Source: Daucus carota subsp. sativus | Taxonomy: Eukaryota > Streptophyta > Magnoliopsida > Apiales > Apiaceae | Reading direction: 5' to 3' | DNA length: 64,000 nt | Assembly: GCF_001625215.2 (NCBI RefSeq) | Contig: NC_030381.2 | Coordinates: 6,287,131-6,351,130, forward strand | In this document: positions 4,672 to 60,297 of the stretch, piece after piece | How positions within the stretch are numbered: the first letter of the stretch is position 1 | How the letters are laid out: the number at the start of each line of letters is the position of its first letter | The notes under the pieces: model-generated | Databases searched by the model: none | The model's input: only the letters and a program-made list of their open reading frames with translations | What the model was told of the DNA's origin: nothing | Program-made: the position numbers and the translations under genes

Positions 4672-4678
4672 AAAGAAT
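4672..4678. repeat. left target-site duplication AAAGAAT
   Basis: The seven bases AAAGAAT abut the first TG of the 5' LTR and recur at 18455-18461 just after the final CA of the 3' LTR. Copia integrases usually make 5-bp duplications, so the 7-bp match is slightly longer than expected. Confidence 0.75.
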
Positions 4679-5277
4679 TGTAAGTCTAAATGTAAAGACA
4701 ACCCTATCTGTTACATAGGGATGATAACTCAACAATAGAACAGGACAAGTAAATAACACTACGCCTGCACCGGAATCGGAAGATACGAAGACAAAGGTTG
4801 AAGAAGCCATCTACAGTCTTGAAGGAATAAGTTCACTGGAAGAAGTTCATTAATATGTTCATGCCTCAGTGAAGAATAAAGATTGAAGTATTCAAGATTG
4901 TGGAAGCAATGAAGATGTTGTCCAAGTACTCGAAAGATTTCAGTGCAACCCCTGAAGCAAGATATTTCTATATATCTTGGTTGGTTATTTATAATCAACA
5001 AACTGAAGCATAAACTAACCCGGAACCGACTGATCAATGGTTGCTGACAAAGACGGTACAATGTTCAACTTCAGTGTTAGTCGCTTGTGAACCAGACCAG
5101 TGCACTAAGCGTCAGCACGTACGGAGCTTTGCAAAGTATTTATCGATCGAAGAATTGATCCAGTCATATCAAGTCATTTGTTCCAAAGCCAAGTCAAGCC
5201 AAATGCCAGCTATGCCAAAGCTTACTGCTCAAATGCCATATGTCAAAGCTTCCACAGAAAGCCATATCAGGAAGTGA

Positions 5278-5760
5278 CATTTTATATATGTGTGCACTTA
5301 TATATTTGTATATGTACAAATATAATTATATATGTATATATGTATATTTAATTAAATATAATATATATAATATATATGTATATATGTTTTTAAACATATG
5401 TATATGTATATTTATATGTATATATATTTAAATAAATATATATGTATATAGTATATGTATTTATATTTTACATAAACATTTATATATTTAAGTGTATATA
5501 TATATATATTATATTATGTGCATAAATATGTGTATATTTATATCTATAGATAATTATATATATATCCCTATATATATTTATATTTATATTTACATATAAT
5601 TTTATGTATATTATATATATTTAAATATATGAGAATATATTTAAATATATGTATATATATATATTACTATATGTTTATATAAATATTATTTATATATATA
5701 TATATATCCTTATTTATACATATATTTAAACATAATATTATGAATATAATATGATATATG
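5278..5760. repeat. A/T-only tract inside the LTR U3
   Basis: About 480 bp made almost entirely of TATATA, TATATG and TTTAAATA words. It is repeated exactly at +11,556 bp in the 3' LTR, including run lengths, which is notable because such tracts change length fast. Confidence 0.85.
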
Positions 5761-5774
5761 AATGTTGGGAAAAA

Positions 5775-6290
5775 TGTCTAAGTACATATACAGTGGAGTG
5801 AATTCAAGTGGAGCGCAAACTTTGACTTAGTCAAAGCTTGCGCCTCCTCACAAAACTCTGTACTTAGAATTTTCTAAGTACTCACTATGTACACAGTGGT
5901 GCACCATGGGGCGCAATCTTTGACCTTGGTCAAAGCGCCAGTTAAGCTTTTGTCAAGAATTTCTAAGGCAATACTCTACAGGGGAACATACAGTGAAGAA
6001 GTTGGCGCAATGTTTGACTGTAAGTCAAAGCGCAACAATTGACTTCTTCAACTGGAAAGGATTGGCACATGCAAAAATATTCTAAGTAATTTGAGTCATA
6101 CAGGGGAACACTCTAGTGAAGGGGCGCAATGTTTGACCATGTCAAAGCGCAAGGTTTGACTTAGTCAAAACTTGCGCTTGACACTGAATCAACTCTGTGG
6201 CCAAGTAAATATTCTATCTCAAGTCACATATGGATGCACTGTACAAGCGCAAACTTTGACCAGGAGGCGCCAAGTTTGACTCTCTCAATT
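5775..6290 (+). promoter_or_regulatory. LTR tandem array of palindromic W-box-like units
   Basis: Four to five diverged units begin with TCTAAGTA-like words at 5777, 5873, 5962, 6081 and 6201 (spacings 96, 89, 119, 120 bp). Palindromes with GCGC arms and inner TTTGAC...GTCAAA lie at 5813-5843, 5910-5939, about 6004-6034, 6124-6150 and 6147-6177, with single half-sites to 6280. TTGAC is the core of the W-box bound by WRKY factors. Regulation by WRKY proteins is inferred only from the motif. Confidence 0.7.
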
Positions 6291-6429
6291 GAAGACACTG
6301 GAATATACATATATGTATATATGGAGCGCAACTTAGCTATACATATATTCATATATATATATATGTATATGAAAGTGGCGCCAATCTCCTGTGTTCTTTG
6401 GAGATAGATTTATTTTTATAAATCGAATC

Positions 6430-6469
6430 CGTCCAGGACGAACTCAAGTCGTCCAGGACGAACTCGTTA
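6430..6469. repeat. 20-bp tandem duplication upstream of the LTR TATA box
   Basis: CGTCCAGGACGAACTC occurs at 6430 and again at 6450. Each copy contains the near-palindrome CGTCCAGGACG. The pair sits about 40 bp upstream of the TATA-like box and is duplicated in the 3' LTR. Confidence 0.75.
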
Positions 6470-6900
6470 ACCATGGTTAGTTTATGAAAGCCTATAAATA
6501 TGTGATTGTGGTTCTCACAATTAACATCATCCTTCGGGATGGATGGCCAAGTGCTATGCACAAACTCTCTCAAATATACACACACCCTAGCCTAGTTTTG
6601 TACCATAAATATTTGTAGTGGATAGGGCTTGTAATATTTAGAGGAGTGGTCATTGTAGCCAACCTTCGGGTTTGGATTTGTAGCACCTTCGAGGTATTTA
6701 TCAATATACAGATATACCTTGGAAAATATTGTGTGTTGGTTTAATATTTTCATATCCTCAGAAACCGACCCAATATATATCCGGAACACGAAACCCATTA
6801 CAGAACTGCAATTTGTTTATCCGCAAGATTCGAAAGAATTTTAAATTGTAGTGAGTATCGTATTCAACCCCCCCTTCTACGATACTTTGGACCTAACAAT

Positions 6901-6916
6901 TGGTATCAGAGCCAGG
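6901..6916 (+). other. primer binding site, initiator tRNA-Met type
   Basis: TGGTATCAGAGCCAGG starts two bases after the 5' LTR. TGGTATCAGAGC is the classical complement of the 3' end of plant initiator methionine tRNA used by Copia elements. Confidence 0.93.
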
Positions 6917-7076
6917 TTGATTGATATACAAATCAGGATCCTTATCGTACGGAAAATCAAGAACCTAGCTTTTGATATTTGATTAGGGGAAATGTTCTTC
7001 CGGTTTGTGTTGCTGAATTTGTCCGTAGGCCTAAGCAAGGATTATCCGTCGGATACTGAACTTTGGACTGGGACTT

Positions 7077-7690
7077 ATAAATTTATACTTTAAATTTTAA
7101 TAAGTTTATTTTATAAATTTGACTTAATTTATTTTAAACTTATTAATTGAGTTTATTATGAATTAATTAAATTTATCTTATAAACTTAATTAAATTTACT
7201 TTATAAACTTTACTAAATTCAATTATTAAATTTGTTTAAATTTATTTTAAACTTGTAAAGTTTACTCTTAGACTTATCAAGTTTATCATAAATTTTTATA
7301 AATTTATTATTTAAATTTGTATAGTTTATGATTTAAATTTAAGTTAAAATATAAAATATAAATTTAAAAGGATTTAACTGATTATGGATATAAGTTCAAG
7401 TTCAAGGGTTCAATTTAGTTTGTTCTGGAAGCTATGATTTAATTGGAGACGAGACACTTGAATATTTTCAAAAATTAAATTTATTTAATAAATTTTAATA
7501 TATTTACTAAATGAATTTGAAATAAATTTGTTCTAAACTTATTCAGTTTATTATGAATTTATTTGAATTTATTTTTTAAATATAATTAAATTTACTTTAT
7601 AAATTTAACTAAGTTTATTTTATACTTTATTTCCTTTCATCTTTTAAAACTTATTTTTAAATTTATTGTCTTTATAATTTAAACTTAGTT
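7077..7690. repeat. AT-rich repetitive leader after the primer site
   Basis: Two blocks (about 7077-7370 and 7480-7690) are built from variants of AAATTTATTTTATAAACTTA. They are separated by about 100 bp of normal composition. This occupies the untranslated leader where gag would normally begin soon after. Confidence 0.6.
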
Positions 7691-7699
7691 TAAATAATC

Positions 7700-9790
7700 A
7701 AGTGTCCCGTAACCTTTTTAATTATTCTACTCCAAGACAAATCAGATTGACATTTAGTTGAGACAGATCAGGCTGACAGATTACAAGACAAACATCGGGC
7801 TTTCAAATACCAGATTCTCAGAACCGATAATGGAAGTACATTGATGACCCAATCCAATTGATTACTCAAAGGATTATTAGAAGCAGTTTTCTATGTTCGA
7901 CAAAGCTGATTGTGATTCGAAGAAGATTCTATTGAAGACTGATTGGACACTACTGACAGTGAATTTTGAAGAAGGTACTTCAGGCCTTGATCTGAGTAAT
8001 TACTCCTACTTGATTATCAGATCACCAGATCAGGATGGGAATTTGCTACATCTGCAGTGAAGCATCTTTCCAGGGCTCGGAATGTCAACTTTGAATGGCA
8101 CCACTGGTAGTAGGAAAAGAGAAGTTTTTACGGACGAATCTTCAAGGGATTTCAATCTAACTCAGTGATTCGGGGATATACAATTACACAGTGAATTGTA
8201 GCAATGCTAAATCCATCCAGAATCAACTGAATCAAAGACAGAGAACTGTGGAGGTTTAAGGATATAATTATCGAGTTACTACCGCACCAAATCAGTTTCG
8301 TGCATTTATGTCAAAACCTTAGGATTGAACAGAAGAGTTTGTAACTGCTGAATTTGAGGAAGCTCAAGTCGACGAAAGTTAACACTTTTGAAGAATGTGA
8401 GGACAGAACTTCAAGGATTAGCATAACACTGTCTGAGAGGTTTAGTCATGTCAGATTCAGATGGAATCCATTGGTTTCAAGTGGAGACTCTTCGGGGTTT
8501 AGTTCGACAGGTTGTTTGAAAACTGAGTTGGTAAGTACACACAATATTGATTGGTATCTTTAGCAAAGAAGGGTTGCTATATATATTGAAGCCTCGACAA
8601 ACAAGGACGATAGGATTTGTCTGGAATTCAAGTGGATGTTTTGAAAGAAGCATCATAACAAGTTCTAATGCTACATAAGGAAAGGTGTGAGATGGATCAG
8701 TTGCTGATGAGAAGGATGATTATGGTTATCTGGCTATCCTAGCATTCTCTGAAGATGACTCAACTCGCACATCTCAGGTACGAATTCTTTCTAACTATGC
8801 AATACATATTTCTTTATATTCAAAGCATGTTATAAATCTCTGAGTAGAATTGTTTAACACACAAGCACAAGCATGATAGCATCACAGTAGAAAATGTTAA
8901 ACTGGTATGCTAGATGACTGTTCTAGTTACTAGGCTTGATGATAATCTTGTGCATGTGTCTTTAGCAGATTCTTAACATGTGTATGAATATTTAGGATTT
9001 GATTATTTGCAATGGTGAGATTAGAAGCTTTCCTTTGGAAAACAACTCTTAGTTTTAGGGGTTATGATCCTAGCATATATAACTTTGTTAAAACATTTAC
9101 TTTCAGATTCCCTAGTACAATTAGATTTGCTTATTTATCTGAATTGTTTGTTAAGGAATTTATTTGTTCTATGATGGAATGTCTACCTTGTGTCAGTAGA
9201 ACCTTTAGAACTTCATGTTAGATCTAAAACTGACTTAGGTAATAGAGATAGTATAATGCCATATAACAACAGACTGGGATTAGTATGAAATGATAATGTA
9301 ATTATTAATTTCTTGTGTCTAATCCATATGCCTTTCGAAGATTATTGAATGTATGTAATTCTACTTGCTACCTGTTGCACTTGTGTTAATTGGTTTAAGT
9401 AGAGAGTATTGAATCTTCTGAATTGCATAACTACATGTCTTGCTCTTGTCTTATCTTTGATTGTTTGCCATGTGTATTCAACATCATGTCTGCTTATTTT
9501 CATGTCGTGAATGCATGTCTTTGTACTTGCATTGAATTTAGAAAAGCATGTTTGAGAATCACATTAGGGCAATGTCTAGATAAGAATTAGCATGTTAAGG
9601 TTGCTTCTGTTGTTACCACTGTTAAAGAAAAATCTCTAATCCATCCGGACCCAGTTATGATTGGGGACCATAGAACTCTTTCCATTTGTGATTGCAGGTT
9701 ATATATATTCCATATGATTTTTGGTGCACTCTGTTTGCTGAGTAGCTGAAATCATATGAATCACAAAAAGTACCCTGTTAGCAAATGTGA
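7700..9790 (+). pseudogene. decayed leader/gag region of the Copia element
   Basis: Composition returns to about 40% GC from 7700 to 8760, suggesting former coding sequence. No frame stays open beyond about 70 codons and I could not recognise a zinc knuckle. By position between the primer site and the protease/integrase remnants this should be former gag. Confidence 0.5.
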
Positions 9791-10230
9791 TCATATGAGC
9801 AGTTCCGTCAATAATCTTTGGAAGATGACAACAAAGATTCTCTTATGGAACATGCTCCTTTCCTGGAATGTCATCATGGAAGCATATCTTTCTTGCAAGG
9901 AGTCAAAGCACACAAATTCTTAGTATCAGACTGTTCTCTGACAAAGGACATTATGTCAGTTCATGGAATAGTGTTTTATCTTAAATCAAGAAGGATGTGA
10001 ATTTTTCTCGTAGCTAATATGGAACTTCAATTGAAGATGGAGTGAGTTGTTTTGATAGTGAAGCTTCATCTGATGAGTATTAGCTATGGCACTTGAAGCT
10101 CTCAAACTTGTATGTCAAAACAAGGAGCTCTTTTTATTGGTAAGAAGAGAATTGATGAGAGGACTACCTCATCTGGAATTCATTATGGATGAAGATTATG
10201 AGGTATGTCAATAGGGAAGTCGAAGGAGCA
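9790..10230 (+). pseudogene. decayed protease-side and GAG-pre-integrase remnant
   Basis: Scattered in-frame pieces match the Copia order before integrase: a WNVIM..YLSCKESKH stretch near 9865, a FILNQEGCEFF stretch near 9975, and LWHLKLSNL then RRELMRGLPHLEFIM near 10085-10190. The last motif is highly typical of the GAG-pre-integrase domain. Stops and frameshifts interrupt every piece. Confidence 0.8.
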
Positions 10231-10254
10231 TCGCACAAAAGTGAAGACATGATC

Positions 10255-10420
10255 AACATTACTGAGCCGCTTCAGATGATACGTATGGAATTCTACGGAT
10301 CAGCTAATGTCATGTCTGCAAAAAAAAGGCCAGATATCTTTTTGCGATGATCATTGACTACTCTAGATTCTTTCGTGTTGTTCGTATGTGTTCGAAGGAC
10401 AAGAGACGTCACAAATGAAG
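10255..10420 (+). pseudogene. decayed integrase core remnant
   Basis: After shifts between frames, an EPLQMI..EFYGSANVMSA stretch is followed by a YLFAMIIDYSRFFRVV stretch near 10335. These correspond to the first catalytic region and the DYSRF hallmark of Copia integrases. The reading frame is broken and the domain cannot be functional. Confidence 0.82.
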
Positions 10421-11084
10421 GTTGATCAAGATGAACCCTGATCATTGAATAATCCAGAAAGACACCATTCTTGCCAGTGGCCAATCAGAAGCAAACACTA
10501 ACTTTTGGTATGTGTTTGGAGGAAAATGCCTCTTCGAAAGTCTTGCATTTGAAGATCAAAGAATACTTTCCTCGGCTACTCTATGGAGTCTACAGTCTAC
10601 AGGGTGATTGTGATTAATCAACAGAAGGTGATTGTAAGTCTGGACAGGACATTGAACGACACTTTGCTCCAAGCTGTTAAAGGTGATATTATTGGTATAA
10701 TAATGATTCAGATCCAAGCAGAATCTCTTTGCAAGGATAAGGATTATTAAGGAGATCCCAGCAACAGCTTAGGGGGAGCATTTGGTGGATCCACTAGTCA
10801 AACTCAACACCACATTGAAGATGAACAGGACATATCAAGAACGTATCTGCTTAGACAAAGGGTTTGAGTCTATATCATTCCCGGGTTCTAGTTCTTAAAT
10901 GTTTCTAATGGTGAAGAGACGACTGGGAGAGCTACTGTGAAAGGATGTTATTTCTTTGGGTTTCAATCTGAAGTGAAACTTGAGGAAGATTCAGAACCTC
11001 TTAAAGGGATCCAGATTGAGTGATTGCACCACAAGATGATCTCAATCAATTTGAAAGCAGATTGTGCGGATTCTGATACCCTGA

Positions 11085-11225
11085 CCTAATGACAATTCAG
11101 TACTTAGTACTTGTTGGGTATTCAGATTCCAACTGGATAATTTTGGCTCTGTTACGAGGGACAAGCCAATTTGGTTGCTTAAATTTACTTCAAAGGATAA
11201 GGTTATGAAGATGATAGAAATATAA
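11085..11225 (+). pseudogene. decayed reverse transcriptase N-terminal remnant
   Basis: The reading WVFR..LDNFGSVTRDK near 11110-11165 matches the WVFRNKxDexGxVtRNKARLV start of Copia reverse transcriptase. Downstream the frame is lost, and the YVDD-box region was not recognised. Confidence 0.75.
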
Positions 11226-11939
11226 TCTTCAAGTTCAGGACTCTACATCTTAGGGGACTCAACGACCTTCATGATTGAACTAAGGCACCATTGACGAGAC
11301 TCGGGTTCAGGATATTACAGTGAGCTAGAAGATGAAGCTTCATGCAACATTTCAAGGACTTTGCAGTTGCAGATCCAACGGAGTTTGTATTCTCTTTCTT
11401 CACCAGCTCTCTATGAGTTGTTATCCAACACCTGATGATCGTCACAGACATGGTATGACTTCTGACTAGCATATTATTTTAATATCTATTTGCTAGAGTC
11501 ATATTTGGTATCCAAATTATTACCTCTCATGATACAAGGCACACACAATATACTATCTGTGCTGTGATACCATGATTATATTATATGTGGACTAACGTCA
11601 CTTGTGCAAGATAATTGCTAAGTGAATGCAGATTAGTGATATGATGAGTTTGTTGGAAAGTTGCAAGTCTTTATGATCTACTAGTTAGCCTAAAGAATGA
11701 TGGCAATAAAAGGAAGTCAAGGATCTTTTGAATATGCGCATTTTGGAAGATTCTAGACCTGCCAAGACTTAAGCCAACAACCACTGAACTTGATCAGTAC
11801 AAGAAAGGTACATCAACTGAAATGTCAAGTCTTAGAGGTATTCAACTCATCACTTTACTTAACTGCAAAATGATCACATGTTATATTTTCTCTATGTCAA
11901 TGTTCATGGTTTTGAGTGGATTTTGGAGAATCTATCCAT

Positions 11940-12165
11940 TTAGTTGTTAAGAGGTTTATAGTTATTTTTGGGGATTGCCTAATCTATTGGAATGGTACCC
12001 TAAAGATACTGTGCTTAACCTGTACAACTACATAGATATTGTTTTACAGATTGTCAGAAAGACATGGGATTTATTCTCTCTTGAAGCTGTCATTCGTGGA
12101 AGGAGGTTGATTTCTTGTTATAATAAGAAGATGTCAAGAACAAGGAAATAACTCCATTTCCAGCA
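11940..12165 (+). pseudogene. decayed RT C-terminus / RNase H remnant
   Basis: Pieces VKRF, GLPNLLEWYPKDTVLNLYNY and GRRLISCYNKKM follow the order of the VKRI-LKGTPNLGLWYPK...GGRLISWxSKKQ segment that joins reverse transcriptase and RNase H in Copia. Stops lie between them. Confidence 0.78.
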
Positions 12166-12169
12166 ACTC

Positions 12170-15100
12170 TGTGAAGCACTCTCTACTCCCTTGAACCTAA
12201 GGATCTTGCTATTGGAACCTAAGGACCTAACTCGATCTAGTGCTCGTTGACATAAGGTATTACTTCTTTCATGAGCATGTCTATCGTATTTCTTGAATGA
12301 ATTCATGAGTATTAAATTGTCTATACATAGGACTTGTGAATTTATTTAAAATCCAGTACCTCGTGCTTTTTGCTATTATATGTAATTACCATGTTTATTG
12401 CTTTGCACTTAGATGGTGATTATGTGTTTTAGCATGAGTGTTTGTTATTTCAAATTATTTAAATTATGGTGCATGACAATTAAGTGACTTATTTGTTCAT
12501 GATTTAAATGATTAGAGATGACATGAAGCATGACCTAATTATGTTATTTTTCTTGATCTATACCTCTTCAACAATTGGTATCTAGTAGAGAACTTTGTCA
12601 TAATCCAGTTGTGATATATCTGTATTTGTGAACATACTTAGGATTATCTTCTAGGTTGAATTCATTTTTTATAGGTATAAAATCTGAAGCATGACTTGTT
12701 TGTTTCTAGACTTATGACTTGTATCAGTAATTGGTATCTAGTTTGAATCTAGTTAGAATTTAGTCATGATATACTAGTATTTGTGGAGTTACTTAGATTC
12801 TCTCTAGGCTGAATCCATTTATATTAGTGTATATACTTGAAGCATAACTATTTGTGTTGGATATTTGATGATTTATTAATTGATATTTTATTTCATGTCT
12901 AACTGCATATAGTTGTGATACTTTTAGTGTTAGTGATATTATTGCATGCTTATATGTAGATCACTAATATTAATTGTTAATATTTTTCTGCGAGGAGTTG
13001 TGTGCGTTCACGTGTGTTTAGTGATTATTTGTATAGGACTCGTGAACTTTTCCTCAACTTTCCCTCGGGCTTGCGAATATCTTTGTATGATTGTCATGAT
13101 TTTAGTTGTTATATGCTGATCTGATAATTATATGATATTGCGTAAGTAATTTTTATTTTATCTTAGTTAAATTGTGATCCATGACAATTATATGCTTATT
13201 TGTTTCATGATTGACTTTGATAGAATAATAGATGCATGATTAATTTACGTTTTGAAATATTTAATTGGTATCTCTTTCTGATACTTTATTGATGTTTTAT
13301 TTGTGAATTGATTGTGATGTATTGGCACTGGTGAAATATTGTTGCATATTTCTTAAAACCACTGGTGCTAATATATTTTAGGTGTTTAATATTCTGAGTA
13401 CAAGGGAGACAACATAATCTTTATTCTGTCTCATATTTATGTTCTGGAGTGGTGAGTTTCTTCAAAGAAATTTTCTTATCAATTGATTTCAATAATTGGT
13501 ATCCACTACTCTATTTCATAAATATCTCTTAGAATATTTTGCATCTATACATGTAGCGTCATAGGATGAGACATTGATTATCTTGTATTTGTGTACTTGG
13601 TGATCTTTGTCACTTGCAGCGTCTGTTTTGACGATGTGCTAGTATGAGGCCTTTTCACTAATTTGTGTGGTGAGTGCTTTATACACTGTAGCACATAAAT
13701 TTTTTTTTGTTTCCTTTTTAAAATTGTAGTGAGAAACAGGAGTCTGTGTCTTTTTCAAAGACAATTTCATTTAAACCTTTTAAGCATAGATTCAGACTCT
13801 CGTACTCAAACCAGTTTTTAAAGGAAAACTTTGATTCTTTCATCGGTTGTGATTGTCATTCTTTATGCAAATCATTTTTACAATCACAACTGATTCATTT
13901 TTCCTCAAAAGATTAAATGCAATTGCTTTCATTCAAAATCATAGATTTTCTAAAATGCATTTATATCTCTTTCTGTTCTTCGGAACTTAATCAGCTTCTT
14001 GGCTTTCCTAAATAGTCATAAGGTTGAAAACCAACAATCTTTATCCCAGACTATAAAACCAAATTCAGAACACATCCCAACTTTCCCCCTGGAGTGATAA
14101 GGAACTTATTAGACTAGAGGTCAATGAGGGAGAAACTGTACTCGTTACAGCAAATAAGGATGTGAGGGATAGTGTACCCACAGCTCTACCTCTCAAGGAG
14201 AAAAGGTGTTTTCAAACTTGAGGTAACTGTTGCTCATCTGTATTCTCCCAAAAGAATATAGAGCTGAAAAGGCAATAAAACAGTCTCTGGAATCATTCTC
14301 TCAACAGGATGAGTCCATTGAAATTCGCTCGTCAGCCAGAGCATCTTGTATTGAGTCAAGCACATCATCAGTAATCACTCTGATGAAGAGCCTAAACAAA
14401 AAAATCTTATGGACACAATACAAGAGAGTGCACAGTAAGGTTAAAGGTTTTGTTCCAGAAGCAACTTCTTCATTTACCATTTTACGGTAAATAAGATGGT
14501 TGATGCCTTTACCGGTGTAAGGAGGAAACGAGGATCTCAATTGCCAAATCTTCAGGATTCTCGTCTCCCTCCCCAGATAAGAACAGATCTGGATCCAATC
14601 GGAATGGATTTCCTATTTATAGGAGATCGGCAACTCTCTGACTATGAGTCAATTTATTGATGAGTCAGTTGAGGATCGGGGATTTACGAAACCCCATTGC
14701 ACCGCCAGTGACCTCTTTTGAAGGGGCTATGGTGATTTTCTCATGCAGGTACAGAAGACCATACTTTGAGTGCTGAGAGAAACACTGTGAGCCAAACACT
14801 GAGAGTTAAACACTTGGTGAGATTCTGAGAAGGACCAGTGAGATATCAGAATGAGAAATATGTGAGCATGAGTGAGTGCAAACACATAGGATTTTGAGAA
14901 GAGTGAAACACTTGTGAGGTACATATAATAATAATTGGTATTGAAAGCTCACAAGTTGTTGAAAGAATTGACGGAAGCAACTACGGTTCATTCCATTTCA
15001 CGTTGTGAACTTATGGTTGATGATTCTCTTGAATCAAGTGTCTTCACAGACATTGAGGAGGACTTAGGCCTTTGCCATAATTAAGCCTTTGTCTAACCTC

Positions 15101-16234
15101 CCAGAGCAAACAACTCTGGATCCTTAATTGGATAAGCCACTTAGTGGTTGGCAACTTGTGGACCATGATTCGGATTTATCTGATGAGTCTGCAGGGACTG
15201 GGAATTACGAACTCCCATTGCACCACCGGTGACCCCCTTTAAGGGTGGCTAAGGTGATTTTCTTGCAGGTACTCAGCATTTTGGAAGCTCAGTATTTGTG
15301 TGGAGGGATACACTTACAGAACTCGTGAGTGACACCCTTACCCAAAAACCGAGAGAAAATTGAGTGTTGAGTGATACACCTGCAGAACATTTTAGTGAGA
15401 CACCTACTAATTACCAAATTTATACCTAAAGACAAGGTGGATGTTGTTACTGGAATGTCAGTTCTTATTCATTACTTTTCCGTTTGGAACCTATTCTTTC
15501 AGCATAGGGACCAACCCAATCAAAGTAAACCCTTCTTCTGAACTCTTTCTTCGACCCCAGCTTTAGCGTTGTTTAGTTCTCTACGGGGAGATTATCTTTT
15601 GGTACAGGAAGTATTGTACACGTTCCTTGACCTATTTGATACCACATATCCTCGGAGGATTCCACAACTAAGGGGGAGAATATATTTAGGGGGAGAATAT
15701 ATGAAAGGGGGAAGAAAAAGTAAGTTAGCTTTCTTTAGTTGTCTACAACTAAAGGGGATTAAACTACTCTTTAGTTGTGTACTACTGAGGGGGAGATTCT
15801 TCTTTCAACTGAGGAGGAGGATTGATCTTTCATCTAAGGGGAGACAACTACTTATCACTAAGGGGAACCTGATCAAGGTAACGGGAGGAGAAGTATAAGG
15901 TGATACATCTATTCTTCAGTATGTGGTAGACATGAACTTATTCATTACCACTGAAGAATTCAATGAAGCTGCTGATTGTTCTTTGCATAATGGAATGTTT
16001 TGAATTCTCTTCAAGACAGACTATGAGGATTATCTGGCAGGTAAGCAAGAACCAAGGAAATACAGGTGATATGCACATCTGTTGTTTCTATTAATGAAAT
16101 CTGGAAATGTATTATATGATCCAGAAACTTTGTAGCATTATTTACTAGTCCAGGACTTTTACTTTTTCTAGTGTTAGTTGAGTTATCCTCCAGAGGATTT
16201 GCTTGTTATGATTAACAAACAAATAGGGGGAGAT
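12170..16234 (+). other. long post-RNase H region of the Copia element
   Basis: About 4 kb lies between the RNase H remnant and the 3' LTR. Sireviruses often have an extra reading frame or long non-coding stretch here. I see no convincing gene. It contains a two-copy repeat of about 155 bp (12569-12850), a two-copy repeat of about 100 bp (14650-14751 and 15173-15274) and a G-rich polypurine array (15660-15900). Confidence 0.7.
15660..15900 (+). repeat. array of polypurine tracts
   Basis: AAGGGGGAGA-type tracts occur at least seven times (AAGGGGGAGAATATAT, TTAGGGGGAGAATATATG, AAAGGGGGAAGAAAAAG, TGAGGGGGAGA, GAGGAGGAGGA, TAAGGGGAGA and TAAGGGGAA). A final one, ATAGGGGGAGA at 16224-16233, abuts the 3' LTR. 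Multiple polypurine tracts upstream of the 3' LTR are reported as a hallmark of Sireviruses. Confidence 0.8.
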
Positions 16235-18454
16235 TGTAAGTCTAAATGTAAAGACAACCCTATCTGTTACATAGGGATGATAACTCAACAATAGAACAGG
16301 ACAAGTAAATAACACTACGCCTGCACCGGAATCGGAAGATACGAAGACAAAGGTTGAAGAAGCCATCTACAGTCTTGAAGGAATAAGTTCACTGGAAGAA
16401 GTTCATTAATATGTTCATGCCTCAGTGAAGAATAAAGATTGAAGTATTCAAGATTGTGGAAGCAATGAAGATGTTGTCCAAGTACTCGAAAGATTTCAGT
16501 GCAACCCCTGAAGCAAGATATTTCTATATATCTTGGTTGGTTATTTATAATCAACAAACTGAAGCATAAACTAACCCGGAACCGACTGATCAATGGTTGC
16601 TGACAAAGACGGTACAATGTTCAACTTCAGTGTTAGTCGCTTGTGAACCAGACCAGTGCACTAAGCGTCAGCACGTACGGAGCTTTGCAAAGTATTTATC
16701 GATCGAAGAATTGATCCAGTCATATCAAGTCATTTGTTCCAAAGCCAAGTCAAGCCAAATGCCAGCTATGCCAAAGCTTACTGCTCAAATGCCATATGTC
16801 AAAGCTTCCACAGAAAGCCATATCAGGAAGTGACATTTTATATATGTGTGCACTTATATATTTGTATATGTACAAATATAATTATATATGTATATATGTA
16901 TATTTAATTAAATATAATATATATAATATATATGTATATATGTTTTTAAACATATGTATATGTATATTTATATGTATATATATTTAAATAAATATATATG
17001 TATATAGTATATGTATTTATATTTTACATAAACATTTATATATTTAAGTGTATATATATATATATTATATTATGTGCATAAATATGTGTATATTTATATC
17101 TATAGATAATTATATATATATCCCTATATATATTTATATTTATATTTACATATAATTTTATGTATATTATATATATTTAAATATATGAGAATATATTTAA
17201 ATATATGTATATATATATATTACTATATGTTTATATAAATATTATTTATATATATATATATATCCTTATTTATACATATATTTAAACATAATATTATGAA
17301 TATAATATGATATATGAATGTTGGGAAAAATGTCTAAGTACATATACAGTGGAGTGAATTCAAGTGGAGCGCAAACTTTGACTTAGTCAAAGCTTGCGCC
17401 TCCTCACAAAACTCTGTACTTAGAATTTTCTAAGTACTCACTATGTACACAGTGGTGCACCATGGGGCGCAATCTTTGACCTTGGTCAAAGCGCCAGTTA
17501 AGCTTTTGTCAAGAATTTCTAAGGCAATACTCTACAGGGGAACATACAGTGAAGAAGTTGGCGCAATGTTTGACTGTAAGTCAAAGCGCAACAATTGACT
17601 TCTTCAACTGGAAAGGATTGGCACATGCAAAAATATTCTAAGTAATTTGAGTCATACAGGGGAACACTCTAGTGAAGGGGCGCAATGTTTGACCATGTCA
17701 AAGCGCAAGGTTTGACTTAGTCAAAACTTGCGCTTGACACTGAATCAACTCTGTGGCCAAGTAAATATTCTATCTCAAGTCACATATGGATGCACTGTAC
17801 AAGCGCAAACTTTGACCAGGAGGCGCCAAGTTTGACTCTCTCAATTGAAGACACTGGAATATACATATATGTATATATGGAGCGCAACTTAGCTATACAT
17901 ATATTCATATATATATATATGTATATGAAAGTGGCGCCAATCTCCTGTGTTCTTTGGAGATAGATTTATTTTTATAAATCGAATCCGTCCAGGACGAACT
18001 CAAGTCGTCCAGGACGAACTCGTTAACCATGGTTAGTTTATGAAAGCCTATAAATATGTGATTGTGGTTCTCACAATTAACATCATCCTTCGGGATGGAT
18101 GGCCAAGTGCTATGCACAAACTCTCTCAAATATACACACACCCTAGCCTAGTTTTGTACCATAAATATTTGTAGTGGATAGGGCTTGTAATATTTAGAGG
18201 AGTGGTCATTGTAGCCAACCTTCGGGTTTGGATTTGTAGCACCTTCGAGGTATTTATCAATATACAGATATACCTTGGAAAATATTGTGTGTTGGTTTAA
18301 TATTTTCATATCCTCAGAAACCGACCCAATATATATCCGGAACACGAAACCCATTACAGAACTGCAATTTGTTTATCCGCAAGATTCGAAAGAATTTTAA
18401 ATTGTAGTGAGTATCGTATTCAACCCCCCCTTCTACGATACTTTGGACCTAACA
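16235..18454 (+). repeat. 3' LTR (2,220 bp)
   Basis: Same length as the 5' LTR at a constant offset of 11,556 bp. It contains the same U3 A/T tract, palindrome array, 20-bp duplication and TATA-like box. No difference was found in the blocks compared, including the microsatellite-like tract. Confidence 0.93.
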
Positions 18455-18461
18455 AAAGAAT
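18455..18461. repeat. right target-site duplication AAAGAAT
   Basis: Matches 4672-4678 on the other side of the Copia element. Confidence 0.75.
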
Positions 18462-22374: not shown

Positions 22375-25300
22375 ATGGCTAAACAAGCTCAAAACCTCTT
22401 TTTGGAGGAATGGCTTACTCTTAACAGTAATGGTAGCAGCAGCATCAGCTCTATACAATCTTCTTCATCATCAGCAAGAGCCATCATCCAAGCATGGGGT
22501 GATCTTAGGGACTCCCTAAAGCAAAATTTCTTCCAACCACATCATCTTCAATCTCTACAAGTCTTGCATAATTCCCAATCCTCTGTTTATGTGTCAGACC
22601 CGCAAGCAAAACTTCTACTTTCTATTCTGTCCTCAAAAGACCTCTCACCTCCGCTTGAATCCTATCCTCTCCTTCTCAGACTTCTGTATATATGGGTTAG
22701 AAAGTCATCCAAGCCATCTTCAGTGCATATTGATTCAGCTGTTGTCATTCTTCATCAACTTTTCTCATTGCATATTCATTCAGAGCAGAGCCCTTATTTC
22801 TACTCTGAGGCTTTTTTACTTGCGGGTGCTCTTACGTGCGTGCCTTCCATATCTGAGAAGTCAAAAACGGATTGTTTGGAATTGCTCAGCAGACTATTAA
22901 AAGAAGAGTATCCATATATTTTTACAAGTAATGGGTATACTGCAAAATTTCTTGCTGGAATTGGATATGCTTTATCTTCTTCGGGAACTGTTCATCTTGT
23001 AAGGATTGTGGATTCCCTACTTAAAATTTGGAATAGAGCTGATGGACCTTCTGGCAGTGTATCAGATGGTCTCATGATATTGCATCTTATAGAATGGGTT
23101 CTTTATGGATTTGTCAAGACACATTCTTCAGATAAAATTAGTGTTCTTACCGGGGAGATTTTAAGAACTTCAACTCCAACATGTGCTTCATTTGCTGTGC
23201 TTATGGCTGCTGCTGGAGTACTGCGAGCTTCCAGTAGATCTGTATCAAGTGTCTTAATGGTATCAAGGAGTTCTGCAGAAGAATGTATCGGGCGTGTTGC
23301 AAGAAACTTGATTTCCGGGACTGAAGGTTGTAATACTTCAGGGAGCCAACCAGGGAACATTCTCTTACTACATTGTATATCATTAGCTTTGGCCCGAAGC
23401 GGTCCTGTCTCTTTCCAGGTCTCCCTGCTTATGTGTCTCTCTTCAGCTTTACTGAATGAAATATTTCCCCTGAAACGTCTCTATGCAAAGATACTGGAAA
23501 ACCACCATGATAGTTCAACAATTGTGTTTAATGAGGTAAAGCAGCACTTAAGTAGTGCCATCTTTAGGGAAGCTGGTGCTATAAGTGCTGTCTTTTGCAA
23601 TCAGTATCTCTTAGCCGATGAAGGGTCAAAGAGTGTAGTGGAAAATTGTATATGGAAGTACTGTGAGGATGTCTATTCGTTGCACCGCCAAGTGGGTTTA
23701 GTGCTTAGAGGGATCGAGGTTGAGTTGATAGGGAATTTGGAGAAAATTGCGGAATCTGCATTCCTTATGGTTGTAGTTTTTGCATTGGAAGTTACAAAAC
23801 AGAGGCTGCACTCCAGGTTTTCACGAGAAACCCAACTAGAAATTTCAGTCAGAATTTTAATTGCATTTTCATGTTTTGAGTACTTTCGGCGAATGCGATT
23901 ATCTGAGTATATGGACACAATCAGAAAGGTTGTTGTTAGTGTCCAAGAAAATGATTTGGCTTGCATATCGTTTGTAAAATCTATCCCTTCATACAGTCAA
24001 CTGATAAATAAAGATGGTATGTCACTTCATCCTGGCATGTTTCAATTTGTTGCACTATGCCCTTCAGATATATATACACATCCTATTTTTCATTTGTAGG
24101 ACCTTCCAGCTTGAATAAATTAGACTATATATGGTCTAAGGATGATGTACAGACTGCTCGGATCTTGTTTTACCTTCGGGTCATTCCCACTTGCATAGAA
24201 CAGGTACCAGCTTCTGTATTTCGTGAAGTGGTGGCGCCAACAATGTTCTTGTATCCTCATAGCGACATTTTATTCAACAAGTAAAAAAAAAATGAATTGC
24301 ATTCATTTCTATGAAATATTGGTTCCTTATTACACATTCAATCAGATACATGGGACATCCCAATGGAAAAGTCGCTCGGGCATCGCACTCTTTGTTTATG
24401 GCTTTTATTTCTTCTGCAAAGGATTCTGACGATGAAGAAAGATTATCATTGAAGGAGCAACTAGTTTTCTTTTATATGCAGAGATCCCTGGAGGTATCCA
24501 TACCTTAAAATATATAAATCTGATTTGTCAAATGGAAGCTTGTGATAGATGCTCTGTTTGCTAATTTTATGACTTGATGGATATGTAGAGTTATCCCGGG
24601 CTTACTCCTTTTGAGGGGATGGCTTCTGGAGTTGCTGCATTGGTTCGATATCTTCCTGCTGGAAGTCCTTCTACATTTTACTGCATTCATAGTCTTGTTG
24701 AAAGAGCTAATAACCTTTCCAGTGAAATCATGGCTGATGACAATGAGGCATGGACAAATTGGCAAGAGGAGGCAGAGCCCTGTAAGAAACTTCTGGAACT
24801 GCTCATGAGGCTTCTCTCTCTGGTTGATATACAAGTAAGAATAAATCTGTTGTACATTTTATATTGATACCTTTATAAGGAGAATGTGAAATGTTTTCAT
24901 CGATCTTTGTACACTCCCTGTTTATAAAATTGGTGTGCTTATAGGGACCGTGTAACTATTTGGGTTTTGTTCAACAGAACCAGTCTCATTGGACTGTGTT
25001 ATGCATTTCTTAAGATTTCAGAGTAACAATATTATGCATTTTTGTTTGAACTTAAGATAGATTATAGTGTTAAGTTTATACTCCCTCCGTCCCAATGAAT
25101 TGTATACAGTTTCCTTTTTGGACGTACCATCAATTGTATACATTCCAAAAGTAGTAAATTTTTATAATATAAAACATCATTACACCAACAACTTTCCTCC
25201 ACTATCTTGATTCTATAATAATATAAACACTATTACCCCAACTACTTTCCTCCCCTATCTCAAATCTATTATTAAATATAAATGGGTCCCACCACTATAC

Positions 25301-26740: not shown

Positions 26741-26777
26741 TATGTGACCCAGTTTATTGCTAATTATGCACTTTAAC

Positions 26778-28364
26778 ATGGACTTGTTCTTGCTCATTTC
26801 TCTTCTTTCTCTTTCGTTTTTACTGCTTGTAATTCACCATGTAAGAGCATTATGTCATAGTAAAAACCTTCCTCCAGGTCCCAGAGGCCTTCCTATCTTC
26901 GGGAACCTCTTCGATATTGGCTCGAAACCTCACGAGTCATTAGCCAAGCTTGCTCAACTATATGGTCCCCTAATGACTATAAAACTGGGAAGTGTCACTA
27001 GTGTAGTAGTATCCTCACCAGAAATGGCAAGACAAGTTCTGCAGAAGCACGATGAGGCGTTTTCAGGCAGAGTGGTGCCTAATTCCATCACTGAACTAGA
27101 ACATTCATCTCATGCAGTGGCATGGTTGCCAATTGGTGAAGAATGGAGACTCATACGAAGAGTTTTAACTTCTTACTTGACTAACTCAAAAACACTGGAC
27201 TTGTTGAGAGGTATCAGACACGACGTGGTTCAAGAAATGGTTTGCCATCTCAAGGATGTTTGTACAAAGGGAGAGAGTGTTGGAATCAACAAGATTGCCT
27301 TCACAACTATCATGAATATGATGTCGAGGACGTGTTTTTCTGTGAATGTGGATGAGTATGAGCTGGGAAATGAGAAGGGTTTTAGGAATGCAGTGACTAC
27401 TATAATGAAGATTACTGCGAAATTCAATATTGCTGATTATTTCCCTTGTGTTAGATGTGTGGATCCTCAGAGAGCAAGGCAAAAGGCCAAGGCTGCTTAT
27501 GGATGTCTTGAACAACTTTGTGATTATTTTATTCACCAGAGGCTAAACCAGAGAAGCTCTGGTATTTCAAGACGCGGAGATATATTGGATTCTTTGCTCG
27601 ATTTCAGCCAAGAAAATCAATCTGATTTTAACTTGAAACATATTCAAGTTCTGCTAGTGGTATTGTTCCTTGATCCTCTATCATACTGGACTAGTACTTA
27701 ATTTTTCAGTGACTATGGTTTAGTTTCTGATGTAACTTTTTTTATTTTGAAGGAACTGTTTTTGGCTGGTACAGAAACTAGTGCCATAACGACTGAATGG
27801 GCATTAGCTGAGCTAATAAGCCATCCACACATAATGTTGAAACTACGCGATGAAATCTCTGAGATGGTCAGAAAAAGGGGAACAATTGAAGAAACGGAGA
27901 TTCTTCGACTACCCTATCTGCAGGCTGTTGTTAAGGAGACAATGAGATTGCACCTTGCAGTGCCTTTTCTGGTTCCCCATAAGACCGAAGAAGATGTAAA
28001 CATAAGTGGCTACGTCGTACCCAAGGACACACAAGTTTTGGTGAATGCATGGGCTATAGCTAGAGACTCTGATACTTGGGACAAGCCTACATGTTTTATA
28101 CCAGAGAGGTTCTTGAAAAGTGGAATGGATTTCAAGGGCCAAACTTTCTCCTTCCTCCCGTTTGGTTCAGGGCGTCGGATGTGCCCTGGAATGCCACTTG
28201 CTCACAGAGTGGTGAGCTTGATGATAGTTTCCCTTGTTCATTATTTTGAATGGAAACTTCCCAATGAATCAACAGAACCTGAGGGCTTAGACATGACTGA
28301 AAGTTTTTCATTAACATTGCAGAAGGCTAAGCCTCTTGTTGCTGTTCCCACCGCAAGGCCTTAA
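26778..28364 (+). CDS. cytochrome P450, CYP76-like (497 aa)
   Basis: Two exons, 26778-27659 and 27753-28364, joined in phase 0. Order of features: N-terminal membrane anchor (MDLFLLISLLSLSFLLLV), proline hinge LPPGPRGLPIFGN, I-helix oxygen-binding motif AGTETS (about 299-304), ExxR as ETMR (about 356-359), PERF (about 411-414), and the heme loop PFGSGRRMCPG with ligand Cys about 438. All key residues are present and the length is normal. The single phase-0 intron just before the I-helix is the common A-type position. Overall resemblance is to CYP76, whose known members oxidise monoterpenols such as geraniol, among other substrates. It should be an ER-bound monooxygenase fed by a P450 reductase; the substrate cannot be read from sequence. 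An upstream in-frame ATG at 26766 would add four residues. Confidence 0.93.
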
Positions 28365-28697: not shown

Positions 28698-30899
28698 CTA
28701 AAACTTGACAGAGATGGGATTTCTCACCACATGTTTACCAGACATCCACATAAGCGATCCTTGAACAAATGGAGTCTTGGGAGCCTCGCCTGATGGGCTG
28801 AACTGCACTTTATAGGTCAGTTTCTGGTTCACACTCGAAAACTCAAGGGTAGCTGGGGTGACACTAACAACGACACCAGGTGGGGAAACAATTTTCAAAG
28901 TGTAAGATGAAACAGCATCGCCGACATTAGTCACAACTCTAGAGAATTCTACTGTTGAGGAGCCTAATGCAATAGAGAAAGAAGGGTAGTTTAGCTGAGC
29001 TTCAGGGATGCTTGTTTCATTAGCACAGCTAACCACCCCATTAACAATCATTCCAACTTGTTCATCAGTGTATCCTAATCCGCACAAGTAAGGAATGTAA
29101 TCAGATGGCTGAATGTCGTAGATAAGGCCAGGATCACTGGCTTTAGAAGGATTTACATGGCCTGCACCAATAGCAAAGAAGTCCGCAGGCAATTCATTTT
29201 GATCAATAATAGGATCGTTGGCTAGGTTTAGCTGATCAGCTGTGGTCATGATTGCAGACTTAATGGCAGCTGGAGACCAAGTCGGTTGGGTGCTCTTTAG
29301 CAAAGCTGCAATGCCACTAAGGTGAGGACAAGACATCGATGTGCCTGAAATCATATTGAAGGTTGCTGTCGTACTTGCGTTATCAATAGAAACAGGCCAT
29401 GCTGCAAGAATGCTGACCCCAGGGCCTATGATGTCAGGTTTCAGGATTCCGGGGCTGGCAACACTGGGACCTCTAGATGAGAAAGACGTAACAGCAGGAG
29501 CCCAATCTACTCCAATTATAGTTCCCCTGAATAAGATTGTGGCCACAGGCGACGAGGTTGAATTCATATACTGCTTGACTGAAACTCCAACAGAATAGCC
29601 CACATGAGTTGCTGGAAGAACATGAGGATCAGCTAATGTACTTTCTCCGTCTAGCTCTTGATTCATTAGTATCATTGCAGCTCCACCAGCATCTTTCACT
29701 GTCTGTCCTTTGGCAATTCTTGCTATACCACCGCCTCTTTCACACAAGACTACTTTGCCTTTAACATCGACGTTGTCCAGTGAACCTTCAGCACACCATG
29801 CAGCATTCTCATCACCGTTTGAACCAGGGAAAACAAGTGGCATCAAAGTCTGAGGGAAATCCTTTGGCTGGAAGAGGGATTCACCATCCAATTCATCTTT
29901 GTTTCCCAGAAGTGCAGTTGCTCTTATGTTTCTATCAATCGTGCTAGCTCCAACAGTAAGAATCCAAGGAGCCTCATTCGACATAGTACTATTCTCCGGA
30001 CCAGAATTCCCTGCTGAGCAACTCACAAAAATCCCCTTCTGAATAGCACTAAATGCCCCCACAGCAATACTATCAGCATAGAAAGGGGCTGACAGGCCTC
30101 CCAACGACAACGAAAGAACATCCACACCATCCTCCACAGCAGCATCCATTGCAGCCAATATATCACTCTCAGCACAAGTCTCTGAACAAACCTTGTACAT
30201 TGCCACATGAGCCAGAGGCGCCATGCCAGAAGCCGTCCCATTCGCCATCCCAAACACATTAGCTCCCTTCACAAAATTCCCCCCTGCAGTACTCGCTGTA
30301 TGAGTCCCATGCCCTTCCTCATCAGTAGGCGGTCCAGCCTCCCCTGCAACAAAATTCCTAGCTCCAATCAACTTATTATTACACGTCGTCCCCTCACACG
30401 ACCCCTTCCACTTAGCCGGTGGAGGAGGCATCCCCTCATCGCTAAACGACGGATGATCAGATGTGATCCCAGTGTCCAAAAGCCCAATAATCACCCCCTT
30501 CCCATAACTTGAGCCATTCCAAACCCCAAAATTCTGGTGCAGCCCCAAGAAGTTAGGACTATGCGTCGTATGCAAAGAGTACACACTCTGCGGCCTAATC
30601 GACAAAACTCCATCCTTCTTCCCTACAACCTCAGCTTCCTCATCCGACAATCTAGCAGCAAAGCCATTAACAACGTTCCTATAACTATGAACCATCCGAA
30701 CCTCCTGATCTGAACTCGATATCGTCTCGGGCAAAAAAGACCGATAATAACCCTCATGATTTTCAAACTGAGCTAAAGCCTTGTCATCAACAATTCTTAC
30801 ATGCACAATGTAGGTCTTGAAACTGGCATTTTGAGCAATGCTTAAGCACAAGAAGCTTAAAACACAAACAATACTCAAAAAGAAACCGAAAGCAGCCAT
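28698..30899 (-). CDS. subtilisin-like serine protease, SBT1-type (733 aa)
   Basis: An intronless frame on the minus strand, ATG at 30899 and TAG at 28698. Order: signal peptide (about 1-22), inhibitor I9 prodomain (about 28-112, TYIVHV ... SLHTTHSP), peptidase S8 domain with Asp about 142 (LLDTGI), His about 197 (GHGTHTAS), oxyanion Asn about 298 (SAGNSGP) and Ser about 521 (GTSMSCPH), a protease-associated insert between them, and a C-terminal fibronectin-III-like domain ending ISVKF. The triad is intact and the length is typical. The product is secreted, cleaves its own prodomain and acts in the apoplast. Lack of introns is usual for the SBT1 group. It converges on the P450 gene with about 330 bp between stop codons. 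Confidence 0.95.
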
Positions 30900-59255: not shown

Positions 59256-59681
59256 GAAGAATTATTCTCTCCAACACTTAAAAATGTGTTTTGCGTCTAA
59301 CATAAAAAAATCCAATGGTCAAACTCGGATAATCAGTACAATCGGCTGATGTTTTCATAATATTGTATATGGACTCTGGGTAAATTAATAATTTAAACTT
59401 TATTATTCTTAAAATTTCTTATGTTAAATAATTTGATTTTCTAAAAATTATTTTAAATTTAAAATTATCAGATTTTCTACTTATTTATAAGTTAAATTAT
59501 CCAAACACATAAATAATTTATAAGCAACATCATTCAAACATTTCATCAATTTATGAATTTTAACTATCACTTATAATTCACTTCCCTGATCAACTAACTA
59601 ACTTCTCCTTAATTTGGCCAAATGATCTCAAGAAAATAATAAGAAAAATTTATGTCTTATTTCTATCTTAGAAATTATATA

Positions 59682-59939
59682 CTCCCTCCGTCCCAAATTA
59701 ACTGTCCAGTTTGACTTTTTGATGGTCAATTTGACCCAACTTTGACTGAAAATTAAAAATTATTCTTTTACGATTTTACAAAACTGAAAAATATATTCTA
59801 AAATAGATTTGATAATCTTTTCAATGATATATATTTCATAATTTTATTCAGTTATTTAATATACATATTTTTCAGTCAAAGTTGGGTCAAATTGACCATC
59901 AAAAAGTCAAACTGGACAGTTAATTTGGGACGGAGGGAG
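59682..59939. mobile_element. Stowaway MITE with 71-bp perfect terminal inverted repeats
   Basis: 59682-59752 is exactly complementary to 59869-59939 and starts CTCCCTCCGTCCCAAATTAA. TA dinucleotides flank it. Each arm contains TTTGACT, GGTCAA and TTTGACC words. The perfect arms imply recent insertion. Confidence 0.92.
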
Positions 59940-60297
59940 TAATTATTTATATTTTGGAAAGGGGGCAAGGTCTTATTCTTCTGCCGAAACACACTGTTTA
60001 AGAAAAAGAAAAAGAACATATAATACACTGTTTGTTTTTACGAAGCCAAACCTTCAATACAGCAAAACCCTTACTGGGCTTATAACCCATAAGATACGGG
60101 TCAAACAAAATCAAGGTATATGTACAATCCATGATACAAATTTGATGGACATGTTTGGGCCAAGGCCCTTCACTCACTCCCCATGCTAACTTAATACACT
60201 CTGCTTTCCATTTCACATAACTGAACTCAACTTAAATTGGGCAACTTATTAGTACAGGTAATACTGTGTAGAACAGAATGTCAGCAACGCTTCCTGC

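Follow-up and report, generated by a model that had tools for sequence, protein, structure and literature searches.

The window, the whole 64-kb stretch of DNA that was analysed, contains a complete LTR retrotransposon with two LTRs and an internal body, together with a cytochrome P450 gene, a subtilase gene and an ORF encoding a DUF1191 protein. No matches were returned by tRNA and Rfam searches across the window. Among relatives with a species name, the protein encoded at 22375-24099 is most similar to those of Escallonia, Lonicera and Camellia (63-64% identity), other matches being closer (75% to 99%); this points to a eudicot host, probably an asterid. The features of the element and the neighbouring genes are as follows.

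4672..4678, plus strand: 7-bp direct repeat AAAGAAT on the 5' LTR side (sequence read)
4679-18454: complete LTR retrotransposon, two LTRs and internal body
4679..6898, plus strand: 5' LTR, TG...CA, 2220 bp, with 0 mismatches against the 3' LTR at offset 11556 (blastn 100% over 2220)
5299..5759, plus strand: AT-rich low-complexity stretch (TRF), directly upstream of the palindromic array
6430..6460, plus strand: CGTCCAGGACG, a second repeated motif, in two copies at 6430 and 6450 (20 bp apart); the pair stops 31 bp short of the TATA-containing string
6493..6500, plus strand: TATA-like box TATAAATA (sequence scan); the string containing TATA begins at 6491
6868..6874, plus strand: poly-C tract C7, candidate Sirevirus-type integrase signal, 24 bp before the LTR end
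6899..6912, plus strand: LTR/PBS junction of Sirevirus type, ATTGG + TATCAGAGC
10553..10747, plus strand: decayed pol remnant, a short open fragment (Pfam PF25597, E 5.5e-5, 23.4 bits against a cut-off of 27)
15671..15795, plus strand: upstream PPT copies AGGGGGAG at 15671, 15688 and 15788, within 0.6 kb of the terminal PPT
15706, plus strand: PPT variant AGGGGGAA, among the upstream copies
16225..16232, plus strand: terminal PPT AGGGGGAG, then AT, beginning 10 bp before the 3' LTR TG at 16235
16235..18454, plus strand: 3' LTR, TG...CA, identical to the 5' LTR over 2,220 bp
17369..17840, plus strand: palindromic array of the 3' LTR, identical to that of the 5' LTR
18455-18461, plus strand: 7-bp direct repeat AAAGAAT on the 3' LTR side (sequence read)
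26757-28364: cytochrome P450 gene, two ORFs, probably with an intron between them
28698-30899, minus strand: subtilase gene, after the P450 gene
54111-55049: ORF of a DUF1191 protein

The element is recently inserted: with 0 differences between the LTRs, the 95% upper bound on its age is ~52,000 years at 1.3e-8 substitutions per site per year and 97,000 years at 7e-9. The flanking AAAGAAT repeats are a probable target-site duplication; in Copia elements this duplication is usually 5 bp, and the flanks can alternatively be read as a 5-bp repeat (AAGAA) if one extra base belongs to each LTR end.

Lineage, coding capacity and relatives of the element

Sireviruses had been brought in as the comparison by the first-pass annotation, and the junctions of the element show this choice to be right. 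The published signature (Bousios et al. 2010, PMC2829016) comprises CA/ATTGG + TATCAGAGC at the LTR/PBS junction, the PPT octamer AGGGGGAG 10 bp upstream of the 3' LTR, several identical PPTs clustered before that LTR (average 4) and, at the LTR end, a 19-bp motif and a C-rich tract. In the element, CA/ATTGG + TATCAGAGC occupies 6897-6912, the octamer lies exactly 10 bp upstream of the 3' LTR and is followed by AT/TG, and identical PPTs cluster at 15671, 15688, 15788 and 16225; one more copy is found at 10771, far upstream of the cluster. The C7 tract resembles the Sirevirus poly-C signal (PMC2829016) by its C-rich nature and its place alone. Sirevirus PPTs are also bordered by an inverted repeat, averaging 28 bp with the right arm ~28 bp inside the LTR and absent in 3 of 21 elements (PMC2829016); here a candidate for such a repeat is short, with 11-nt arms (16218-16228 / 16258-16268, 91%), the left of which runs into the PPT, and a separate 15-nt inverted pair lies nearby (16177-16191 / 16275-16289, 93%). 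The monophyletic Sirevirus clade is defined by RT/RNase H (PMC3599292). With no readable RT found in the element body, the placement rests on the junction hallmarks, and PPT, multiple PPTs, PBS junction and poly-C tract match the published signature of a Sirevirus-type Copia element.

The 9,336-nt body has little coding capacity, the longest stop-to-stop fragment on either strand being 118 aa. A Pfam scan covered 40 of the 42 plus-strand fragments of at least 40 aa, the 44 minus-strand fragments being left out, and one of the 40 (10553-10747) resembles a retroelement protein, with similarity to the retroviral polymerase SH3-like domain below the Pfam cut-off. Three other weak matches (E 0.04-0.07) are to unrelated families and look like chance. 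Intact LTRs, PBS and PPT thus enclose an almost non-coding body, and because the coding capacity is this small despite intact Sirevirus junctions, the element is probably non-autonomous.

Public predicted proteins include 19 relatives of the 10553-10747 fragment (55-85% covered, 86-98% identity), ten of them 55 residues long; the search returns proteins of 0.55-1.75 times the query length, so that intact relatives could not appear, and the contigs of the 19 may stem from one plant or several. When ten relatives were aligned, five terminated at the same residue as the fragment in the window and five elsewhere. Decayed copies of the element seem numerous, as if it belonged to a multi-copy non-coding family, which would fit the spread of such a family after coding decay.

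The palindromic array in the LTR

The array lies ~0.2-0.7 kb upstream of the TATA-like box and begins 1134 bp into the LTR. Its assignment to U3, made in the first-pass annotation, is supported by the limits of the LTR (4679-6898), the TATA-like box at 6493 and the PBS junction at 6899. The AT-rich stretch upstream (G+C 9.8% and zero CpG in 5300-5770) may explain the unusual distance from the LTR start. The units, from unit alignment, and the motifs that they contain are listed below.

5775..5870, plus strand: unit 1
5813..5843, plus strand: palindrome 1, GCGC-N5 arm on both sides
5871..5959, plus strand: unit 2
5911..5938, plus strand: palindrome 2, left GCGC-N5, right GCGC-N1
5960..6079, plus strand: unit 3
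6005..6033, plus strand: palindrome 3, left N5, right N1
6030..6043, plus strand: extra half-site GCGCAACAATTGAC, without a TTGAC mate
6080..6206, plus strand: unit 4
6124..6150, plus strand: palindrome 4, left N5, right N1, with GCGC 6147-6150 common to palindrome 5
6147..6177, plus strand: palindrome 5, N5 on both sides, then TTGAC at 6178 directly on GCGC
6207..6300, plus strand: unit 5, two direct half-sites (6247-6260, 6267-6280) and no palindrome

At least a dozen TTGAC/GTCAA cores had been claimed at a density beyond chance, and shuffling bears this out. Positions 5775-6290 hold 15 cores (mean of 5000 dinucleotide shuffles 1.75, max 8), 12 of the W-box form TTGACY/RGTCAA (mean 0.91, max 6) and, as TTGAC-N2..9-GTCAA, five pairs (mean 0.01, max 1), and 0/5000 shuffles reached 15, 12 or 5, respectively. 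Ten of the 15 cores form inverted pairs 8-10 bp apart, at 5822/5830, 5920/5929, 6014/6024, 6133/6141 and 6156/6164, with spacers of 3, 4, 5, 3 and 3 nt and dyad centres 98.5, 94.5, 118 and 23 nt apart. The proposed architecture of five GCGC-armed palindromes in tandem units of about 90-120 bp holds in part: the five palindromes and the tandem units are present, but a long GCGC-N5 arm on both sides is found in palindromes 1 and 5 only, the right GCGC of palindromes 2, 3 and 4 being 1 nt from the core, and palindromes 4 and 5 fall in one unit while the fifth unit has direct half-sites instead.

Outside the LTRs, where windows were taken at 50-nt steps, the densest one reaches 9 cores in 516 nt, so that W-box density alone is less exceptional than the palindromic composite. 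Eight of those nine cores lie in the arms of an inverted repeat (59673-59948; arms of 83 nt, 95% complementary and separated by 110 nt), which may be a foldback or MITE-like element.

The repeated unit of sequence is not the W-box alone but a 14-bp composite, GCGCAANNTTTGAC, with the half-site GCGCAANNTTTGACY. On either strand, GCGC stands 5 nt from the core at 10 of the 15 cores, 1 nt at three and 0 nt at one; the core at 5952 has no GCGC nearby. The ten observed GCGC-N5-TTGAC compare with a shuffle mean of 0.003 (0/3000 shuffles reach 10), and within the 64-kb window this composite is confined to the two LTRs, with ten in each. In all ten of these N5 half-sites GCGC and TTGAC are unchanged, as is the second A of the AA after GCGC; the NN positions differ. 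Other sites were sought in the LTR as sources of the GCGC arms: E2F (TTTSGCGC), CAMTA-type (CGCG), G-box (CACGTG) and GCC-box (GCCGCC) strings each occur 0 times and TGACG once, and the arms are unexplained by them.

Aligned to one another, the five units have a mean identity of 58% (0.576) outside the 14-bp motif and 91% inside it, with unit borders placed by eye and the motif itself helping to anchor the alignment. Invariant columns number 12/14 in the composite versus 9/78 elsewhere (Fisher p 6e-8, columns treated as independent). In 60 sets in which the flanks were shuffled and the motif kept, outside identity was 0.375 (sd 0.031, max 0.455), with a mean of 3.2 invariant flank columns (max 8); the higher observed identity marks the units as genuine duplicates that have diverged. 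When the upstream spacers are aligned locally in pairs, the match is clear for units 3 and 4 (0/300 shuffles as good), which share a stretch of 77.6% identity over 76 nt, and weaker for the other pairs of units 1-4 (1 to 12/300). For unit 5, spacer homology is weak with unit 1 (13/300 shuffles as good) and unsupported with units 2, 3 and 4 (87, 52 and 243/300). The contrast between motif and spacer suggests that the motif was preserved while its background largely decayed; since the five units are one duplicate lineage, the half-sites are not independent.

A conceptual 51-aa ORF spanning palindromes 2 and 3 served as a probe for non-coding relatives, and its sole match was a public 53-aa ORF (P0140, on a 674-bp contig) in which 46/47 residues agree. 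Conservation of the palindromes between family members is in this way supported by one relative, at the protein level and over palindromes 2 and 3. The first six residues of the 53-aa ORF equal the translation of window positions 5762-5779, so that ~119 nt including palindrome 1 seem to be missing in that copy. Going by this single public fragment, copies seem to differ in unit number while keeping palindromes 2 and 3, although collapse of the repeat in a short-read assembly could give the same picture as loss of unit 1. Scans of viral and prokaryote contigs found no relative (one pattern scan matched 27 stretches, none confirmed); plants are not expected in these collections, and the result has no bearing on rarity.

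Candidate WRKY factors and competing explanations

The explanation that we favor, at somewhat better than even odds (roughly 0.55), is that the array is a palindromic repeated-motif (RM) enhancer in the U3 of a recent, non-autonomous Sirevirus-type Copia element and would be WRKY-responsive through its GCGCAANNTTTGACY half-sites. Under active stress or immune signalling, WRKYs, probably of groups I, IIc or III, would each occupy a half-site, with cooperative binding where these are inverted pairs, and would then increase transcription from the TATA box at 6493. Extra contact or selectivity would come from the GCGC arm, which is also the sole place for CG methylation in the array, and the element RNA would be reverse transcribed and integrated by the proteins of an autonomous partner. 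An element controlled in this manner may wake up when the plant is attacked.

Involvement of WRKYs is plausible because TTGAC is followed by a pyrimidine in all ten N5 half-sites (7 T, 3 C, 0 purine), as in the W-box TTGACC/T (PMC4012195); across the array this pyrimidine is absent in 3 of the 15 cores. The preceding base is T in 9/10 N5 half-sites and, over all 15 cores, T in 12, C in 2, A in 1 and G in 0. Tested WRKYs of groups I, IIc and III favor C, A or T at this position and those of IIb/IId favor G (Ciolkowski 2008 via PMC4012195); the lack of G is nevertheless a weak clue to the WRKY group, the region being AT-rich. A further resemblance is provided by PRE4, TGCGCTT, of which the array has four copies, three overlapping a TTGAC core (shuffle mean 0.07; 1/3000 shuffles reaches 4), and which is bound by OsWRKY13 in addition to W-boxes (PMC4891567); this factor is from rice and may not apply to the present host. 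We regard both the base preceding TTGAC and the PRE4 sites as leads to the factor.

W-boxes alone do not explain the GCGC arms, because GCGC is equally invariant. It is conceivable, although on balance unlikely, that the U3 enhancer is read by another, perhaps undescribed, DNA-binding factor that recognizes the whole GCGCAANNTTTGAC, the W-box being coincidental. Such a factor would explain why GCGC, the 5-nt spacing and most of the AA after GCGC vary no more than TTGAC in the ten N5 half-sites, and for Sirevirus RMs no site shared by all was traced to one known factor (PMC2829016). It would not account for the pyrimidine after TTGAC in 10/10 N5 half-sites and 12/15 cores overall, which fits a W-box. 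Moreover, GCGC lies 0 or 1 nt away at four of the 15 cores and is missing near a fifth, which suggests that the TTGAC core tolerates changed GCGC spacing.

Alternatively, the palindromes might be kept for structure, as RNA hairpins formed by the transcript in its 3' U3 (or as cruciforms), serving packaging or as small-RNA sources. RNA folding of the array region is indeed more stable than that of its shuffles (z -4.69, 0/100 as good), and five of six single stretches fold below shuffles: palindrome 1 at -21.4 kcal/mol (z -4.91), palindrome 2 (z -2.39), palindrome 3 (z -2.67), palindromes 4+5 (z -4.18) and the CGTCCAGGACG pair (z -3.60). In maize, Sirevirus palindromes are small-RNA hotspots (PMC5311732, PMC10760457). 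We nevertheless consider this structural explanation distinctly unlikely, given that the palindromes hold only 10/15 cores while 14/15 keep GCGC at 0, 1 or 5 nt, that the half-sites of unit 5 are direct and do not fold better than shuffles (z +0.70, 151/200 as good), that the arms of palindromes 2-4 are unequal and that one of the two N positions is unpaired in palindromes 1 and 5. It is the half-site and not the stem that looks conserved, which favors protein binding over structure, though the palindromes may have a structural role as well.

A third alternative is neutral duplication in tandem within an AT-rich LTR, the motif being the best-preserved piece of a functionless minisatellite. The genuine tandem duplicates (units 3 and 4 above all) would suit it, and so would the apparent lack of unit 1 in one public fragment, which implies that units may come and go. 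It is nevertheless very unlikely in view of the strong motif-spacer contrast inside the same units and because the unit-aligned GCGC is kept in 5/5 units, although in silenced elements no dinucleotide decays faster than methylated CpG.

Known LTR systems and CG methylation

The WRKY-responsive enhancer that we favor can be set against several described systems. Sirevirus RMs are palindromic, number 8-32 per element (linker + 3' LTR) with 3-14 in the 3' LTR, lie upstream of TATA, contain a CGG-CCG core in 12 of 13 cases (Tnd-1 being the exception) and carry factor sites that, by PLACE, are mainly stress-related (PMC2829016). The array is like them in being a repeated palindromic LTR motif before TATA with CpG in the arms. 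In number, its five palindromes (15 cores) fall within the range for the 3' LTR and below 8, the composite being restricted to the LTRs. Unlike in Sirevirus RMs, the core is GCGC...TTGAC in place of CGG-CCG, and the body of the element is almost non-coding. Position also differs: Sirevirus RM arrays begin 200-400 bp after the LTR start, and TATA lies near mid-LTR, ~37 bp after a CpG island (PMC2829016), whereas here the array starts 1134 bp in, TATA is at ~82% of the LTR length and CpG o/e is 0.48. This unusual location counts against the enhancer, and the low CpG o/e led us to reject a CpG island, such as that described for Sirevirus RMs, for the array itself; the short stretch 6290-6480 has a CpG o/e of 1.33 on 8 CpGs. 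The CGTCCAGGACG repeat near TATA is palindromic, short and GC-rich as Sirevirus RMs are, but lacks the CGG-CCG core.

Tobacco Tnt1 and Tto1 have tandem stress boxes in U3 and so share with the array repeated activator boxes in a Copia U3; by description, they are set apart by other motifs and other Copia lineages. Symmetry of Tnt1 box I is mentioned in PMC2829016. According to a review (PMC12786077), WRKYs activate EVADE/ATCOPIA93 by acting at W-boxes in its LTR, and the likeness of W-boxes in a Copia LTR leads to the prediction of immune-responsive transcription under weakened repression here too. Unlike EVADE, as compared by description, the present element is Sirevirus-type and has 15 cores in a composite palindromic tandem array. 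A palindromic WRKY target is also known from the cotton CAD1-A promoter, where a W-box palindrome is bound by GaWRKY1 (Xu 2004 via PMC5996158); that one lies in a host gene promoter, and the comparison concerns the core palindrome alone. Among the papers listed by searches of open-licence literature, none was found to describe a Sirevirus-type array with a W-box/GCGC motif; subscription journals may contain one. Within that scope, the W-box/GCGC content in place of CGG-CCG is new, the RM array architecture and a WRKY-controlled Copia LTR (EVADE) being already known.

The distribution of CpG raises an additional possibility. All 11 CpGs of 5775-6290 lie inside GCGC, and 14/15 W-box cores have a GCGC arm within 5 nt; with arm and W-box locked at few spacings, CG methylation of the array would fall within a few bases of a W-box core. 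In Arabidopsis, the W-box promoter region of RLP43 must be demethylated for WRKY binding (PMC7880685), and EVADE is induced by WRKYs only where epigenetic repression is weakened (PMC12786077). With all CpGs of the array confined to GCGC arms and such an arm close to nearly every core, GCGC-N5-TTGACY might serve as a methylation-gated immune switch, in which CG methylation would close U3 to WRKYs and demethylation together with an immune signal would open it. This AND-gate would let the element spread, through a partner's proteins, only in stressed, demethylated cells. We offer this as a speculative extension of the WRKY explanation and rate it as rather unlikely. Epigenetic gating of WRKY-induced EVADE is already in print (PMC12786077), so that the new part is a fixed CpG-W-box composite that is repeated and conserved. 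Because the GCGC arms are conserved, the connection shown for RLP43 (PMC7880685), in which methylation governs access by WRKYs, becomes testable in a transposon.

The reader of the Sirevirus palindromes is left open in PMC2829016, and the W-box half-site described here supplies a concrete candidate and a simple test. If the WRKY explanation is true, a non-autonomous element would be keeping its promoter logic under constraint, and a Sirevirus-type element would be a mobile carrier of WRKY enhancers; in the window, the 3' LTR copy of the array ends ~4.5 kb upstream of the next ORF of at least 150 aa (22375).
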